In this document: positions 7,553 through 48,002 of the stretch, one piece after another
How positions within the stretch are numbered: the first letter of the stretch is position 1
Layout of the letters: each line of letters starts with the position of its first letter
Origin: Odontesthes bonariensis
Lineage: Eukaryota; Chordata; Actinopteri; Atheriniformes; Atherinopsidae
Reading direction: 5' to 3'
Assembly: GCF_027942865.1 (NCBI RefSeq)
Contig: NC_134524.1
Location: forward strand, 24,471,536-24,535,535
Length of the DNA: 64,000 nt
Notes under the pieces: model-generated
What the model was told of the DNA's origin: nothing
What the model saw: only the letters and a program-made list of their open reading frames with translations
Databases searched by the model: none
Translations under genes and position numbers: made by a program

Positions 7553-7886
7553 TCAGAAAACATCAGGAGGTTGAAACATTTTCAGTAAAGTGAATTTTAT
7601 CTGAAATGTGGAAGAAGAAGTCTGCAAACATGTAAAACTGTTATTTAGAAATGAAAGAATATTTTCACTGTAATTATATTTAAATCAAAGAATATAATGT
7701 TCATTTTAACTGGAATTTCTATTTAAATTGTAGTTAAACACTGAATTATTCAATCCAACAGATAACACTTTGATGATGAAACCTTTTTATTTTTGTTGTT
7801 TCTTTTGATCATTTCTGGATTAAATTACTTAATAACTTCATGAAGTTAAACTAATAAAACCAAAATCTCTGCGTAAGCCAGCTGTT

Positions 7887-7928
7887 CTGTGCACGCTGAG
7901 CTGTGCACGCTGAGCTGTGCACGCTGGG
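7887..7928 (+). repeat. 14-bp tandem repeat, three units
   Basis: Three consecutive copies of ctgtgcacgctgag, the last differing at one base, lie just upstream of the start of segmental duplication 2 (7931). Confidence 0.85.
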
Positions 7929-7930
7929 AT

Positions 7931-9510
7931 TCACTGAGGATGTTTTATTCATGGTGTGCAGCTTCTGCTCTTCTGCACACAGCATGAACTGTACAAGTTA
8001 AAGTGTTTGTTGGTTATTTAACCTGAAAGCCTCCAGCAGCATCCATGTTTCCTCATTAAAGCTCTGAAAGAGGAATGAGTGAAACCTGTCTGTCTGAGTG
8101 TTTCTGTAACCTGAGACAGCAAGAAGCCGTCAGGCTCCTCCTCCTCTGTCTCAGTCTTATGATGTCATCATGTTACTGTGATCATGTGATGAACACACTG
8201 ATGACCTCAGACTTCATCCAACCATCAGTTCACCTCAAGCTAAAGATGAGGTTTATAAAATAACTGAAGGCTGTTTTAAAGACTTTTTCAGGGTTTTTAG
8301 GCTTGTTGCTGCATCAGTGTTAAAATAAGAATAAATGTTTCTGTAAATGTTCAAATTTACTCATTATTTCTGCATTTTGTTGCTGTTGTTTTGCCAATAA
8401 ATGATTGTACTTCTAACTCTCTGTGTTGTGTATTTATTTCCATGTTACTCAGCATGGAACAGGGAGCGTTCCCTCCCTGAGAGGAAAGTCATGTCAGATA
8501 TCATGTTTTTCTATCTTTCTATGAGCTGTGAGGCCAAACAGCAAAAGACTGCAGCTGGTTTTTCTCAGGGTTGAAGGTTGTTTTTGTCACTTTTCTGCCA
8601 CAAGAGGAAAACAGCACAGCTTCATCCACAGGAACCTCCCTCAGGAAACTGTTGGTGGCCACAGAAGTGCTTTAAATTAAAGGCCAAACTGAAGCTAAAG
8701 GAATGATGACAACACTGATAATCTAATGACTTGGATCCAAAGGGAAAGTTCCCATGAGCCTTTGCAGTCAGCATGAAGCAGCCCATAGTCAGAGCCTCCT
8801 CTGCTGCTGCTGAAGTTAATTTCAGCCCAAAGTGAGACATGACGGTGATGTTTCAGGAGCTGCTGACACACACTGAGCAGCTTTAGCTCAGAACACCTGG
8901 AACACACACATCATGGTGTCATCACGTGGTTTCCTGGCTCCGCCCCTCTGATGGTGCCCCTCAGCCTGCCTGATGGCATTCAGGGGCAGCGGGCCGGTGA
9001 GACTCCCTCTGGTGGCAGAAAACAGAATTACACATGGTTTCACTCACTTTCTCGTCGGGTTTAGGAATAAAAGTCCACATGGAAAGGTGGTTATTTTAGG
9101 CTCTGCCTTGTGACTCTCTGCATAGGGACAGCCACCCCTCACCTCCATAACACATCTGATGTCGATACTCTTTTAAGAAAGACATACGTGATGACCACAT
9201 GCCAATTATCGCTGTGGCTGCTTAACCTTAAATGGAAGATGTTTTTGAAGCCTCGAGCCGGATGGTCTCTCCTCTCCAGAGCAGCTGAAGGCCAACAGAA
9301 CCAGATGGAACCCTGAGGTTCCCAAAGCAGATGCCTCCTCCCCCCGACTACACATCCATATCCTGTCCATGTAAACCACAAACAGGGTCGGAGACGAGGG
9401 GCAGAACTGGTAGAGTCCCCGTAACCCAGAACCACTTCCCAACCAGAATGCAGACACAGCTCTGACTGCGTTATTCAGTGACTGGATATCCTGTAAAAGT
9501 GACTTCTGCG
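7931..9510 (+). repeat. Segmental duplication 2, copy A
   Basis: Near-identical to 60928-62694 in the same orientation. Copy B carries an extra (GGAT)n-rich segment near 62030-62222. The copies diverge at 9510/62694, where copy B meets a hAT element. The block holds the receptor 3' UTR, its poly(A) signal and an RTE-type reverse-transcriptase scrap. Confidence 0.9.
8395..8400 (+). terminator. Poly(A) signal AATAAA
   Basis: AATAAA within gccaataaatgattg, ~840 bp after the Ig receptor stop codon and conserved in the duplicate near 61386. It is the likely cleavage signal of the receptor gene. Confidence 0.5.
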
Positions 9511-32993: not shown

Positions 32994-33408
32994 CTAGCTG
33001 TCTTCGCGCCCGAGCAGTAGTTCAGCAGGGACAGTCTCCGTCGGCACACCAGGTCCAGCGATGTCAATAGTTGGAACAGCTTCAGCTAAAAGACGTCTCC
33101 TATTCCCAACCATTCCCGCGATCTCCACAGTTTTAAATGAAACTTTTGTGATGGAAATGTACGGAGCACAACACGGATGTTGAGGACACTTCAAAATCAC
33201 GACGATGCCTCCGTACAAACTGTATCCACCGTGCTCTCGTCTTTGCCTTCTCCTTGTCAGCCTCAGTTCCAGAAGTTTTTGGTTTGGGAAACATGTGCAG
33301 AGAGATCCCTTCAGTGAAGCTGCTATTTTTGCAACTAACACCATTTGTTCCTCCAGCAACACAATATTTTCTGCCGTGCTGTGATGTCTTAGCCATAGAC
33401 GCCTCCAT
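32994..33408 (-). pseudogene. THAP-domain protein of the Kolobok-like element
   Basis: Starts MEASMAKTSQHGRKYC and shows the THAP pattern: cysteines, SLHMFPKP, W in RARWIQFVRRHRRDF, LCSVHF (C-x2-H). A frame change near 33140 leads to RRRLLAEAVPTIDIAG, the usual post-THAP AVPTI segment. It would be the DNA-binding part of a Kolobok/P-type transposase. The frameshift and loss of downstream coding sequence make it non-functional. Confidence 0.75.
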
Positions 33409-33492
33409 TACAGTTAGACTACGAGAACTTCTGTGTCAACCCTATGACGTCACGCATTAAAAAAAGAATTCGCACAAAAAGACAAAATGTGG

Positions 33493-34093
33493 TAGCCTGG
33501 CGACGCCATCCTATGTACTTCCGCCCAAAGATTTTGGCTCCGCACATAGTCTGGCCAAATCCCCCTACCTCGGTTCTCTCAGTGTTTTGCCAATCAGCAA
33601 ACAGTTGCGAGTGGTGACGCAGAACTCACGCGCGGAGTCCATTGTAGTCCATATAATTGTAGTTCAACCGCAGCGGAAATAAACATGGCGACGGAAGAAC
33701 GCTAGAAGCTATCCATGAAGTTGTCTCAACTCTGGAGAGCATTACACAATTAAAACGAGAGCAAGAGGAATGCCTCTTCAATATTGTTAGTGGCAAGGAT
33801 GTCGTAGCTCTCCTTCCAACTGGCTTTGGGAAAAGTTTGATTTATCAAATGGTACCGGTTATAATGAAAGCGGATGTGGGAAGCGTGATTCGCGAGCTAG
33901 AGCCTCGCGAGAGTAAGCATGAACCTCGGCGCATAACCAACGTCATTTCTAAACATTATGATTGGTTAAGGGAACTCTGTTACTCCAATGAATTTAAGTT
34001 GCTGGGTAAGGTCCCGCCCTCCATGGAAACGGATTCCTCTTGGGTTTTCCCAGACTGTTTGACAAAGTCAACAGTCGGCTTTCGCCCAGGCTA
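33493..34093 (+). mobile_element. RecQ-fragment-carrying element, copy 1 (9-bp TSD)
   Basis: A 601-bp unit starting TAGCCTGGCGACGCC and ending CGCCCAGGCTA, flanked by a perfect 9-bp direct repeat aaaatgtgg (33484-33492 and 34094-34102). The 9-bp duplication suggests a Mutator-like (MULE) origin. Inside, one open frame reads ESITQLKREQEECLF and VVALLPTGFGKSLIYQMVP, the RecQ-helicase motif I (Walker A GFGKS at 33813-33836). It continues to a stop whose first two bases are the terminal TA of the element. The ATG in good context at 33685 is out of frame with it. About 96% identical by eye to copy 2. Confidence 0.85.
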
Positions 34094-34330
34094 AAAATGT
34101 GGCTCCTTTTGAGCCCGTTTTAACATGACTTCCCGGATAAATTATTATCCAGACAATATCTCATTTTAATTGCAAGGCTTGGAACCTTTAGAATCAGCAG
34201 CAAAAACTGTGAAATTCCAACAATTAAAATTCGTTTCATAAGCACTTTAAAGACGGGGGGGGGGGGGTGACCCGAGCTATCTTCCATTTAGACTTTATCT
34301 CAATTTTTCATTCATTTTATCATTTCATTG

Positions 34331-44778: not shown

Positions 44779-46667
44779 GTAAGTAATGCTGTCCCATGTT
44801 ATTTATTCTATTTGTTTTTATATTGTTAAAATGTTTTTTATTATTGATATTTTGGTTTGTTTTCATAGAAAGCTATTGTGACATGTTTATTGTGAAGGTG
44901 TTCAGTGTTCAAAGTGTTTTTCATCACAATAAATTATGTATATGCTCCCAATGATTTTGTGTGCACATTTCCCAAAAGAAGAGTTGGGGTGAATTTATCA
45001 CCAGGTAAAAATTACAATATCCTAGTGGGATGATTGTTTTTCTGTTTCTCCCAGCATAAATTACCTTTTCAGATTATAGTCAAAGGACTGATACTGATGA
45101 GGGGAGTCGTTTTCATGCATGTGCCACCTTCCTAGTAAAAGTTAAGGGGGGGGGTGCTTATTCCGGCAGGTGGAAAACCAGGCCTGCCGTGATATGCACC
45201 CCCTTTGATTTTTTTTTTCTGTTAATCCCAGAATCAAATGCTTTTCACAGTAAAAAAAAAAAAAGACTAGTGTGTTGAACCAGAGTCAGTTTAGTGCATG
45301 TGACAGCTTTACAGTAAGAGTTAAGCAGGGGGTACATGCTGTATCACAGGAGAGGGAACACAAGGCCTGCCATGAAATGCTCCCCATCTGCACAATTTTG
45401 TTTCTTTGACCTCAGCATTAGGTACTTTTAACTTTATGAATTTGGTGCCAATATATGTATGAGTTTGATAGGTCTGATAACAGATATGTTAGTGGTGGAT
45501 GGGGGATTGGTTTATTGTATTTTATCTTATAAAGCAGCAAGAAAAATATTTAATTTCTTAAAAACAAGTGTAGCTATTGAATATGAGAATATGTCCTTTA
45601 ATGGTGAGAAACACACAGATGCTATGACTTGTCTATCAGGCATAGATCAAATTACATTTTCATATCGTGATATTCAGGATCAGAAGGCTATTGTTTCGAC
45701 CTACATAGCCTACAGGTTAACACAAATAAAAGCACTTACTTTTGAACCTTGTAACAAAAGCTGGATTCATATTTAAGTCTTGTGAGATCCCAAGTCAAAT
45801 ATATTCACCTTGTTTTGAAAAATCAAGTCCATTCATTTTGTACTTATGGCTGGGGTTTATATTTTCACAGCGCTCGCTATAACGCGATTTTGTGTTGAGA
45901 AGAACATCGGAACACTCTTTAGACTTTTAAAGACTGAAAGCAACCGATGTTCTTCTCTTCCATCTCCTTCATAAATAATTAAATCGTAGAATAGTATGTT
46001 CTCCAGCGTTTGTTTAGGCGAAATGCTTCACTTTCTGAACAAACAAGTGGTGTGCGCTCGCTCCCGCGAGGGGGTGCATCTGATGGCAGGGGTGCCGAAT
46101 TCGGCAAGCCGCCCCATCGTTTCCGATTGCGGTAGCAAATCCTACGGTACAGCACAGCTCTTTGACCACTACCGCTACAAGTCATACTGAAAGTGATGGA
46201 CTGTCTGAGTTTTGAAGGTACTATTTTAACCTGCCTGGATGTCCTTTGTAATTCTTTTTTGGACTGCTGCTTCACTTCTTTTTTTTTTAGCCTTGAAGAT
46301 GAGCACAATAAAACACCATTTAAGTGAATTCCCGCATTTGGCTTTAATTTTTGTCATAACAGAGCCCAGCCACACTTGTATATACTTTTTGCCCCCATAT
46401 ATTTTTCATATTATGGCATTTTATATGCCAAGACCTTTTTTTCTCGAAAAAAAAAAAAAAGATCTATTTCGAGATACCGAAGCTCGTTTTGTGGCGCTAT
46501 GGGGCTAATGATGTATTTTCCACGATGACGGGTTCAGATATTTTGTTAGTTCTGCCAAGTTAAGTTAGTTTTCTCATCACAGCAAAACAGCGGGAAAAAC
46601 TGAGGGGCATCCACTGGCTGAAGTGCAGCTCAGTTAGATAGACTCTCTGCCCACGGATGCCACCGTC
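44779..46667. other. No intact gene; degenerate tandem duplication inside
   Basis: 45030-45240 and 45240-45430 are two diverged copies of a ~195-bp unit (shared phrases include gcatgtgcc/gcatgtgac, agttaag, aggcctgcc, tgctccc/tgcaccccc). The 105-codon frame at 45459-45776 has no recognisable domain. Confidence 0.45.
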
Positions 46668-47248
46668 TAGCCTGGCGACGCCATCCTACGTACTTCCGCA
46701 CATAGTCTGGCCAAATCCCCCTACCTCGGTTCGCTCAGTGTTTTGCCAATCAGCAAACAGTTGCGAGTGGTGACGCAGAACTCACGCGCGGAGTCCATTG
46801 TAGTCCATATAATTGTAGTTCAACCGCAGCGGAAATAAACATGGCGACGGAAGAACGCTAGAAGCTATCCATGAAGTTGTCTCAACTCTGAAGAGCATTA
46901 CACAATTAAAACGGGAGCAAGAGGAATGCCTCTTCAATATTGTTAGTGGCAAGGATGTCGAAGCTCTCCTTCCAACTGGCTTTGGGAAAAGTTTGATTTA
47001 TCAAATGGTACCGGTATAATGAAAGCGGATGTGGGAAGCGTGATTCGCGAGCTAGAGCCTCGCGAGAGTAAGCATGAACCTCGGCGCATAACCAACGTCA
47101 TTTCTAAACATTATGATTGGTTAAGGGAACTCCGTTACTCCAATGAATTTAAGTTGCTGGGTAAGGTCCCGCCCTCCATGGAAACGGATTCCTCTTGGGT
47201 TTTCCCAGACTGTTTGACAGAGTCAACAGTCGGCTTTCGCCCAGGCTA
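46668..47248 (+). mobile_element. RecQ-fragment-carrying element, copy 2 (9-bp TSD)
   Basis: A 581-bp unit with the same termini as copy 1 (TAGCCTGGCGACGCC ... CGCCCAGGCTA), flanked by gccaccgtc at 46659-46667 and 47249-47257. It lacks ~20 bp near the left end relative to copy 1, and a 1-bp deletion near 47016 breaks the helicase-like frame. The Walker A coding segment is at 46969-46992. The out-of-frame ATG and following TAG are shared with copy 1, so they were in the mobilised progenitor. Confidence 0.85.
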
Positions 47249-48002
47249 GCCACCGTCTGCGCTGAAGCGCAAAAATTGACTTGACTTAGAGCAGTCAACA
47301 GAATTACACACGCATGTGTTGACTTAACATTCCAGATCCTCCCCAACTGTCACGAAAGCGGGGAGATTAGGTGCTGACACAGAAACACGCTCATTTTCAA
47401 GCTCACCAAATTCCCTCGTGATCTCGATAAAAACACTAAACGCACACATCTTTTTATTTCCTATGTAAGCAGTCTACTGTATGCTGTGTTCTCAAAACAA
47501 ACAGTGAAAACAAGAAAATGTAACTTCTTATTATCATTAGGTGCGTTTATATGGACACGTTTCGTTTAAAGAGATTACATGTAATCGGTTTATTAGAATT
47601 CGACCGAACTGTATATATGAGCCACAAATAAAGAGATTAAATTTCTTCCGAGTTTACATGTTACAGCAATTTAATCCGATAGGATGATGTTTTAACAAAT
47701 GTTGCAGTATGTCTGAGCTGTTTCTTTGCTTTGTGTTACATGAAAAAATGAGGTGCTCTGTTTTTTTTTCTTTTAAAAAAAACTGCATAGAAGGCCAAGG
47801 GGCAGGACAGCCCCAGTCCGCGCACGCAAGCACACACGCACCACTGACAGGCATACCTGTCCATCTCATTCATTGCTGTGAAAATGCCGTCTCTTATGCC
47901 AATCGGCCGGAGGTTTATTTGGACGTGTTCAATGCCGTTTTACTAAAATGTCAAGCAAAGCGTGGATTATTGTTTTAAATGGGTCGTTTTGACAAAAAGT
48001 CT

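Follow-up and report, generated by a model that had tools for sequence, protein, structure and literature searches.

A short repeated unit with a RecQ-type helicase fragment in Odontesthes bonariensis is an internally deleted derivative of a longer DNA transposon, very likely of the AcademH type

The window, i.e., the whole 64,000-nucleotide stretch of the Odontesthes bonariensis genome that was analysed (NC_134524.1, positions 24,471,536 to 24,535,535), holds two copies of one short element (Table 1). The termini of the 601-bp unit read TAGCCTGG...CCAGGCTA (longer ends TAGCCTGGCGACGCC and CTTTCGCCCAGGCTA), and strict agreement between the two is limited to the first 8 bases. A left-end pattern of 15 bases with up to 3 mismatches was matched four times in the window against 0.35 expected from shuffled sequence, namely by two exact matches and by two opposite-strand matches with 3 mismatches that overlap the exact pair, while a right-end pattern of 20 bases gave two exact matches against 0.00 expected. 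The interval 33484..34102 originally proposed for unit, termini and flanks proved exact to the base, and the duplication is a perfect one of 9 bp. Within copy 1, the open frame containing LPTGFGKS resembles RecQ-group DNA helicases over about 45 residues; its Pfam DEAD match (5.2e-05, 23.5 bits) lies below the 26-bit cut-off, and its best match in PDB is the ATP-dependent DNA helicase 1oyw (3.5e-04), which we take to be E. coli RecQ.

Table 1. Coordinates of the two element copies and their parts within the window.
Feature	Position	Strand	Description
Element copy 1	33493..34093	+	601 bp, non-autonomous, internal-deletion derivative of 8.1-kb element
Copy 1, left target-site duplication	33484..33492	.	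9 bp, AAAATGTGG
Copy 1, right target-site duplication	34094..34102	.	9 bp, AAAATGTGG
Copy 1, left end of parent	33493..33857	+	terminal repeat, 5' region, first helicase codons
Copy 1, native helicase ATG, then frameshift, stop at codon 7	33685..33705	+	
Copy 1, helicase motif I remnant LPTGFGKS	33813..33836	+	native ATG in another frame
Copy 1, deletion junction	33858..33859	.	one extra base relative to family
Copy 1, right end of parent	33860..34093	+	upstream region of convergent DUF6589 gene and terminal repeat
Element copy 2	46668..47248	+	581 bp, same element as copy 1
Copy 2, left target-site duplication	46659..46667	.	9 bp, GCCACCGTC
Copy 2, right target-site duplication	47249..47257	.	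9 bp, GCCACCGTC

The genome (945 Mb, 187 contigs) was searched with the unit at the DNA level, and the best 40 of 989 candidates, which were scored and are by that choice biased to window-like copies, all matched at 99–100% (40/40). The set of 41 copies that was compared consists of copy 2 of the window, L001–L008 (L002 being copy 1) and L041–L072; all of these near copies have both ends and an exact 9-bp duplication (41/41). Their distinct 9-mers number 31, fewer than the copies, because some copies share a site by segmental duplication. In a second sample, 20 places on contigs C1–C3 were picked by hand among 100 of the 784 junction matches, all of these 100 being exact to the pattern. Seventeen of these were readable and carried an exact 9-bp duplication (17/17); L082 and L088 are without one end, and the left end of L097 lies outside the stretch read. 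The 20 places are 87.8 to 99.2% identical to the majority sequence, gaps counted. The two samples together contain 48 distinct 9-mers, and with 41/41 near and 17/17 further readable copies the proposal of a family that is short, non-autonomous and strict in its 9-bp duplications is borne out; duplications of other lengths, which would have spoken against it, occurred in none of the 58 readable copies.

The same deletion junction recurs at several hundred places. A pattern of 31 bases spanning the family junction, with up to 3 mismatches allowed, was found 784 times genome-wide, and a right-end pattern of 24 bases with up to 2 mismatches 890 times, the reversed control giving 0 in each case. 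The junction pattern taken from copy 1 of the window was found at only 4 places, owing to the extra base of copy 1. Some of the copies lie in multiplied segments. Seven of them at C25:11.2-11.7 Mb (L003–L006, L008, L041 and L044) share the duplication CAGAAATTG together with three flanking bases on each side and are probably one insertion multiplied by segmental duplication. Junction matches are also dense at C3:33.4-34.6 Mb, many of them 50–100 kb apart, and this is perhaps another amplified segment.

The helicase fragment in the short unit is non-coding. The five long copies read at this point (see below) have 4 bases right after the helicase ATG that are deleted in the short unit. This deletion is present in 41/41 compared copies, in 37 as the exact pattern and in the remaining 4 with an adjacent substitution. 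In the majority sequence of the short family a stop follows at codon 7 after the ATG, and the helicase frame closes at the deletion junction; substitution has removed the codon-7 stop in 4/41 copies (L052, L057, L061 and L070), all of which retain the frameshift. The open frame running to a stop formed by the terminal TA, as originally described, is true of copy 1 but is no general feature: it runs on because of the one extra base at the junction, which among the 41 copies was seen only in copy 1 and in L001, its segmental copy. Selection on the fragment is ruled out by the 4-base deletion in every compared copy, the codon-7 stop of the majority sequence and the closure of the frame at the junction.

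A source of the fragment was found in long copies of the same element. A search of the genome with the RecQ family model gave at least 40 matches, the best 35 of 1583 candidates being scored, and the long loci found in this way begin with a left end that corresponds to bases 1–364 of the unit at about 95%. The long copy on contig C19 measures 8143 bp, has the duplication GGAAAGATC on both sides and carries the right part of the unit at its end. Bases 1–365 of the unit align to its bases 1–369 (353/369, 96%) and bases 368–601 to its bases 7917–8143 (218/235), i.e., the two differ by 4% on the left and 7% on the right, gaps counted. A copy of 8114 bp with the duplication GGTCTGGGG is located on C2, and on C23 a copy that was read in part through its middle has ends 8361 bp apart and the duplication CAATTTTCC. 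The unit is therefore both ends of an 8.1–8.4-kb element joined together, about 7.5 kb between them having been lost. Derivation from an element with a helicase gene of its own, the second of the two origins first suggested, is in this way established in the form of the two ends of a C19-type long copy. The exact parent copy was not among the long copies read at the helicase ATG, none of which (0/5) carries the 4-base deletion of the unit, and for the long copy at C23:29.70 Mb no right end was found within the fetched stretch. Two further long copies with equal scores lie a few kb apart in opposite orientation at C23:30.518-30.535 Mb, each with one in-frame TAG within its DUF6589 match; they are probably an inverted duplication.

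On the plus strand of the C19 copy a helicase gene starts at base 193 and reads inward from the left end. Its DEAD (7.4e-16) and Helicase_C (7.5e-18) domains lie in separate frames, and each of these frames has a match to the RecQ family model below its curated cut-off (3.8e-21 and 2.8e-23). A PADLOC scan of the helicase frame returned bacterial helicase models, the best being DpdF (2.2e-26), and these matches are taken as general helicase likeness. The minus strand is read in the opposite direction, from the right end inward and convergent with the helicase gene: its first frame has an ATG at base 7829 and its last frame contains a DUF6589 domain (6.7e-24). The minus-strand frames, read as single frames, are taken as exons of one DUF6589 gene, which seems to have introns, and in the short unit the likely ATG of this gene falls in the deleted part. 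Along the DUF6589 strand of the C19 copy the motifs IIFDN, GGDRLT and LEHLN occur in that order in different frames, and their D, D and E residues are proposed, from sequence, as candidate catalytic residues. The DUF6589 protein is likely the transposase of the long element. An autonomous copy with a MULE transposase had been anticipated; long copies do exist, and a Mutator transposase domain was found in none of the 14 unspliced C19 frames of at least 90 aa (14/14 negative). One intron-side frame of the C19 copy has a weak match to a receptor domain below its cut-off, which is taken as chance.

The pairing of the two genes is not restricted to the C19 copy. Among 22 DUF6589 matches in the genome, 14, representing 13 loci (C18 has two), are opposite in strand to the nearest RecQ match and 0 are on the same strand; the remaining 8 have none within 10 kb among the RecQ matches listed. 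The name DUF6589 was not found in any paper of the literature searched. Two elements, L079 on C3 and L080 on C23, have DUF6589 and no nearby RecQ among the matches listed. L079 has a frame of 1269 aa with cysteine pairs, and a second frame of these elements contains GCDTTSQFTGIGK. A motif NxPxDxxLEHxN is common to the long element and to these RecQ-less C3 and C23 elements, with F for L in one of them. Nuclease-bearing members of Academ have an XPG-type nuclease beside the transposase, and it is presumably this lineage that the cysteine pairs and the second frame resemble. Pfam and PDB searches of the second frame gave no support for a nuclease; L079 and L080 are possibly nuclease-bearing Academ elements.

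The helicase of the C19 copy is about 49–59% identical to the helicases of other such loci over long stretches, with identity down to 42% in short pieces. Against the presumed host RecQ loci (L009, L010, L018, L028 and L037) it matches only over 22–63 residues at 40–50%, the matches being also shortened by the exon-by-exon reading of these loci, and a host recq gene, which had been considered as the source of the fragment, is not indicated by this comparison. One of the five, the C26 locus, was identified, ATP-dependent DNA helicase Q5 being by far its best match in PDB (1.4e-59). The ends and duplications of other transposon subfamilies were scanned as well. The C14 subfamily has TAGCCTGG at both ends and an exact 9-bp duplication, GCTTTATAC; the C16 subfamily ends in TAGCCTGG and TAGCCTGA (terminal 8-mer 7/8) with an exact 9-bp duplication, CGGTGAAGT, and gave one weak 6/8 match besides this true pair. 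The scan of the C25 subfamily gave no pair, and the two swapped-pair controls gave one weak 6/8 match each, without TAGCC ends. As the helicases have diverged while the ends are shared across subfamilies, the helicase would be an old part of this transposon group.

We consider the unit to be, very likely, a non-autonomous derivative, by internal deletion, of a DNA transposon of the AcademH type. AcademH is said to have been treated by Kojima in 2020 (Mob DNA 11:15) as a lineage found in animals, going by the title of that paper as cited. The assignment rests on the agreement of helicase and 9-bp duplications with features reported for AcademH: the helicase gene is present in the C19 copy, and duplications of 9 bp were found in 58 short copies, 3 long copies and 2/3 other subfamilies. 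According to PMC10045372, AcademH generates duplications of 9 or 10 bp and AcademX of 3 or 4 bp, in relation to helicase and nuclease, respectively; like the long element, AcademH encodes a helicase, which that passage calls a helicase and not RecQ. AcademH is also listed among helicase-bearing transposons in PMC10799480, and copies of Academ in zebrafish, medaka and stickleback appear in the superfamily counts of PMC4746887. Judged from these partial descriptions in citing papers, no difference between AcademH and the present family was found, and what they say of AcademH does not extend to the DUF6589 protein, the convergent genes, the ends in TAGCCTGG, the preferred target or the 600-bp derivative.

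The strongest of the alternatives, itself unlikely, is a separate undescribed superfamily outside Academ that combines a DUF6589 transposase with a helicase. The absence of the name DUF6589 from the literature searched would fit with this, as would the fact that the comparison with Academ was one of descriptions. On the other hand, RecQ-less DUF6589 elements are present in the genome, as expected if DUF6589 spans AcademH and the presumably nuclease-bearing Academ, and a helicase together with 9- or 10-bp duplications is what PMC10045372 reports for AcademH.

It is even less probable that the unit is a Mutator-like non-autonomous element, an animal Pack-MULE, carrying a captured fragment of a host RecQ gene. 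The 9-bp duplications and the fragment with a helicase motif inside the unit suggested this origin, and the family is like Mutator elements and Pack-MULEs in its duplication length and in having short derivatives with gene pieces. It is unlike them in that its terminal repeats are short, the two termini of the unit agreeing strictly only over those first 8 bases, and in that the fragment comes from the element's own gene: the left end of the 8.1-kb transposon matches it at 96% identity, at the same place between the same ends. The lack of a Mutator domain in the C19 frames and the distance of the element's helicase from the presumed host RecQ loci also argue against it. Capture of a host gene is refuted by the long copies, whose own left end is the fragment, which consequently belongs to a larger element with a different, likely DUF6589, transposase.

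Kolobok elements duplicate TTAA, and given this the duplication length rules out KolobokH or another Kolobok-type element that carries a RecQ helicase, an explanation with next to no probability, as the duplications of 58/58 readable copies are 9 bp long and vary in sequence. The likeness would consist in a RecQ helicase together with a DDE transposase, here a candidate one. PMC9587614 describes a RecQ helicase for fungal KolobokH and for a red-alga element with the helicase on the complementary strand, stating at the same time that KolobokH is confined to fungi.

The sites into which the short element has inserted show a sequence preference. A scan of 25 positions showed G three bases before the duplication in 22/31 distinct sites (uncorrected binomial p 3e-9 against flank composition) and C three bases after it in 19/31 (uncorrected binomial p 5e-7 against flank composition). 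In a separate set of 17 sites, G three before was found in 9 (p 0.0018) and C three after in 10 (p 0.0005), with three other positions of that set at 0.003–0.008. C two bases before the duplication was seen in 17/31 sites (p 1.6e-5), its mirror partner, G two after, in only 10. The preference is weak and symmetric, which is what an insertion complex working on both strands would be expected to produce, and can be written as a 15-bp target with G at its start and C at its end, each separated by two bases from the duplicated nine.

It seems most likely from these sequence features that the long copies make the DUF6589 protein, that this protein is a DDE transposase binding the TAGCCTGG ends of both long and short copies, and that it would insert these copies into sites of the weak symmetric preference by cutting the target strands nine bases apart. 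The element's helicase would probably help strand opening or processing at the ends or the target. The deletion that created the short unit probably happened only once, and the unit would have spread because both ends were kept. A helicase fragment would be retained in it without capture or selection, because the two genes converge and derivatives with both ends keep the start region of each gene. It is tempting, although rather doubtful, to speculate that DUF6589 is a DDE transposase common to helicase- and nuclease-bearing Academ that works with the RecQ helicase at the symmetric 15-bp target, and that the accessory enzyme, rather than the transposase, sets the stagger, 9 bp versus 3–4 bp. 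If this were true, the 600-bp family would be a ready two-component test system.

AcademH elements as a kind were already known; new are this family, the link to DUF6589 and the symmetric target preference. What looked like an animal Mutator element with a captured gene piece is, in these results, a transposon with a RecQ-type helicase of its own. The results also supply an AcademH family, probably of a vertebrate, that has multiplied recently and has both long and short members. They link DUF6589, which Pfam lists without a function, to a likely transposase, and they provide a target preference that is open to testing. RecQ-like frames in such genomes can be parts of transposons, and caution is called for in annotating them as host helicase genes.

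The surroundings of copy 1 are themselves repeated. About 2.5 kb round the insertion recur at C24:25.08 Mb, where L001 is located, with 97.6% identity, and the short flanks of copy 1, duplication included, are found again at C29:28.89 Mb (L045). A frame with a THAP domain (window 33133-33435, minus strand, Pfam 4.1e-08) adjoins the insertion, with its open end about 50 bp from the unit.
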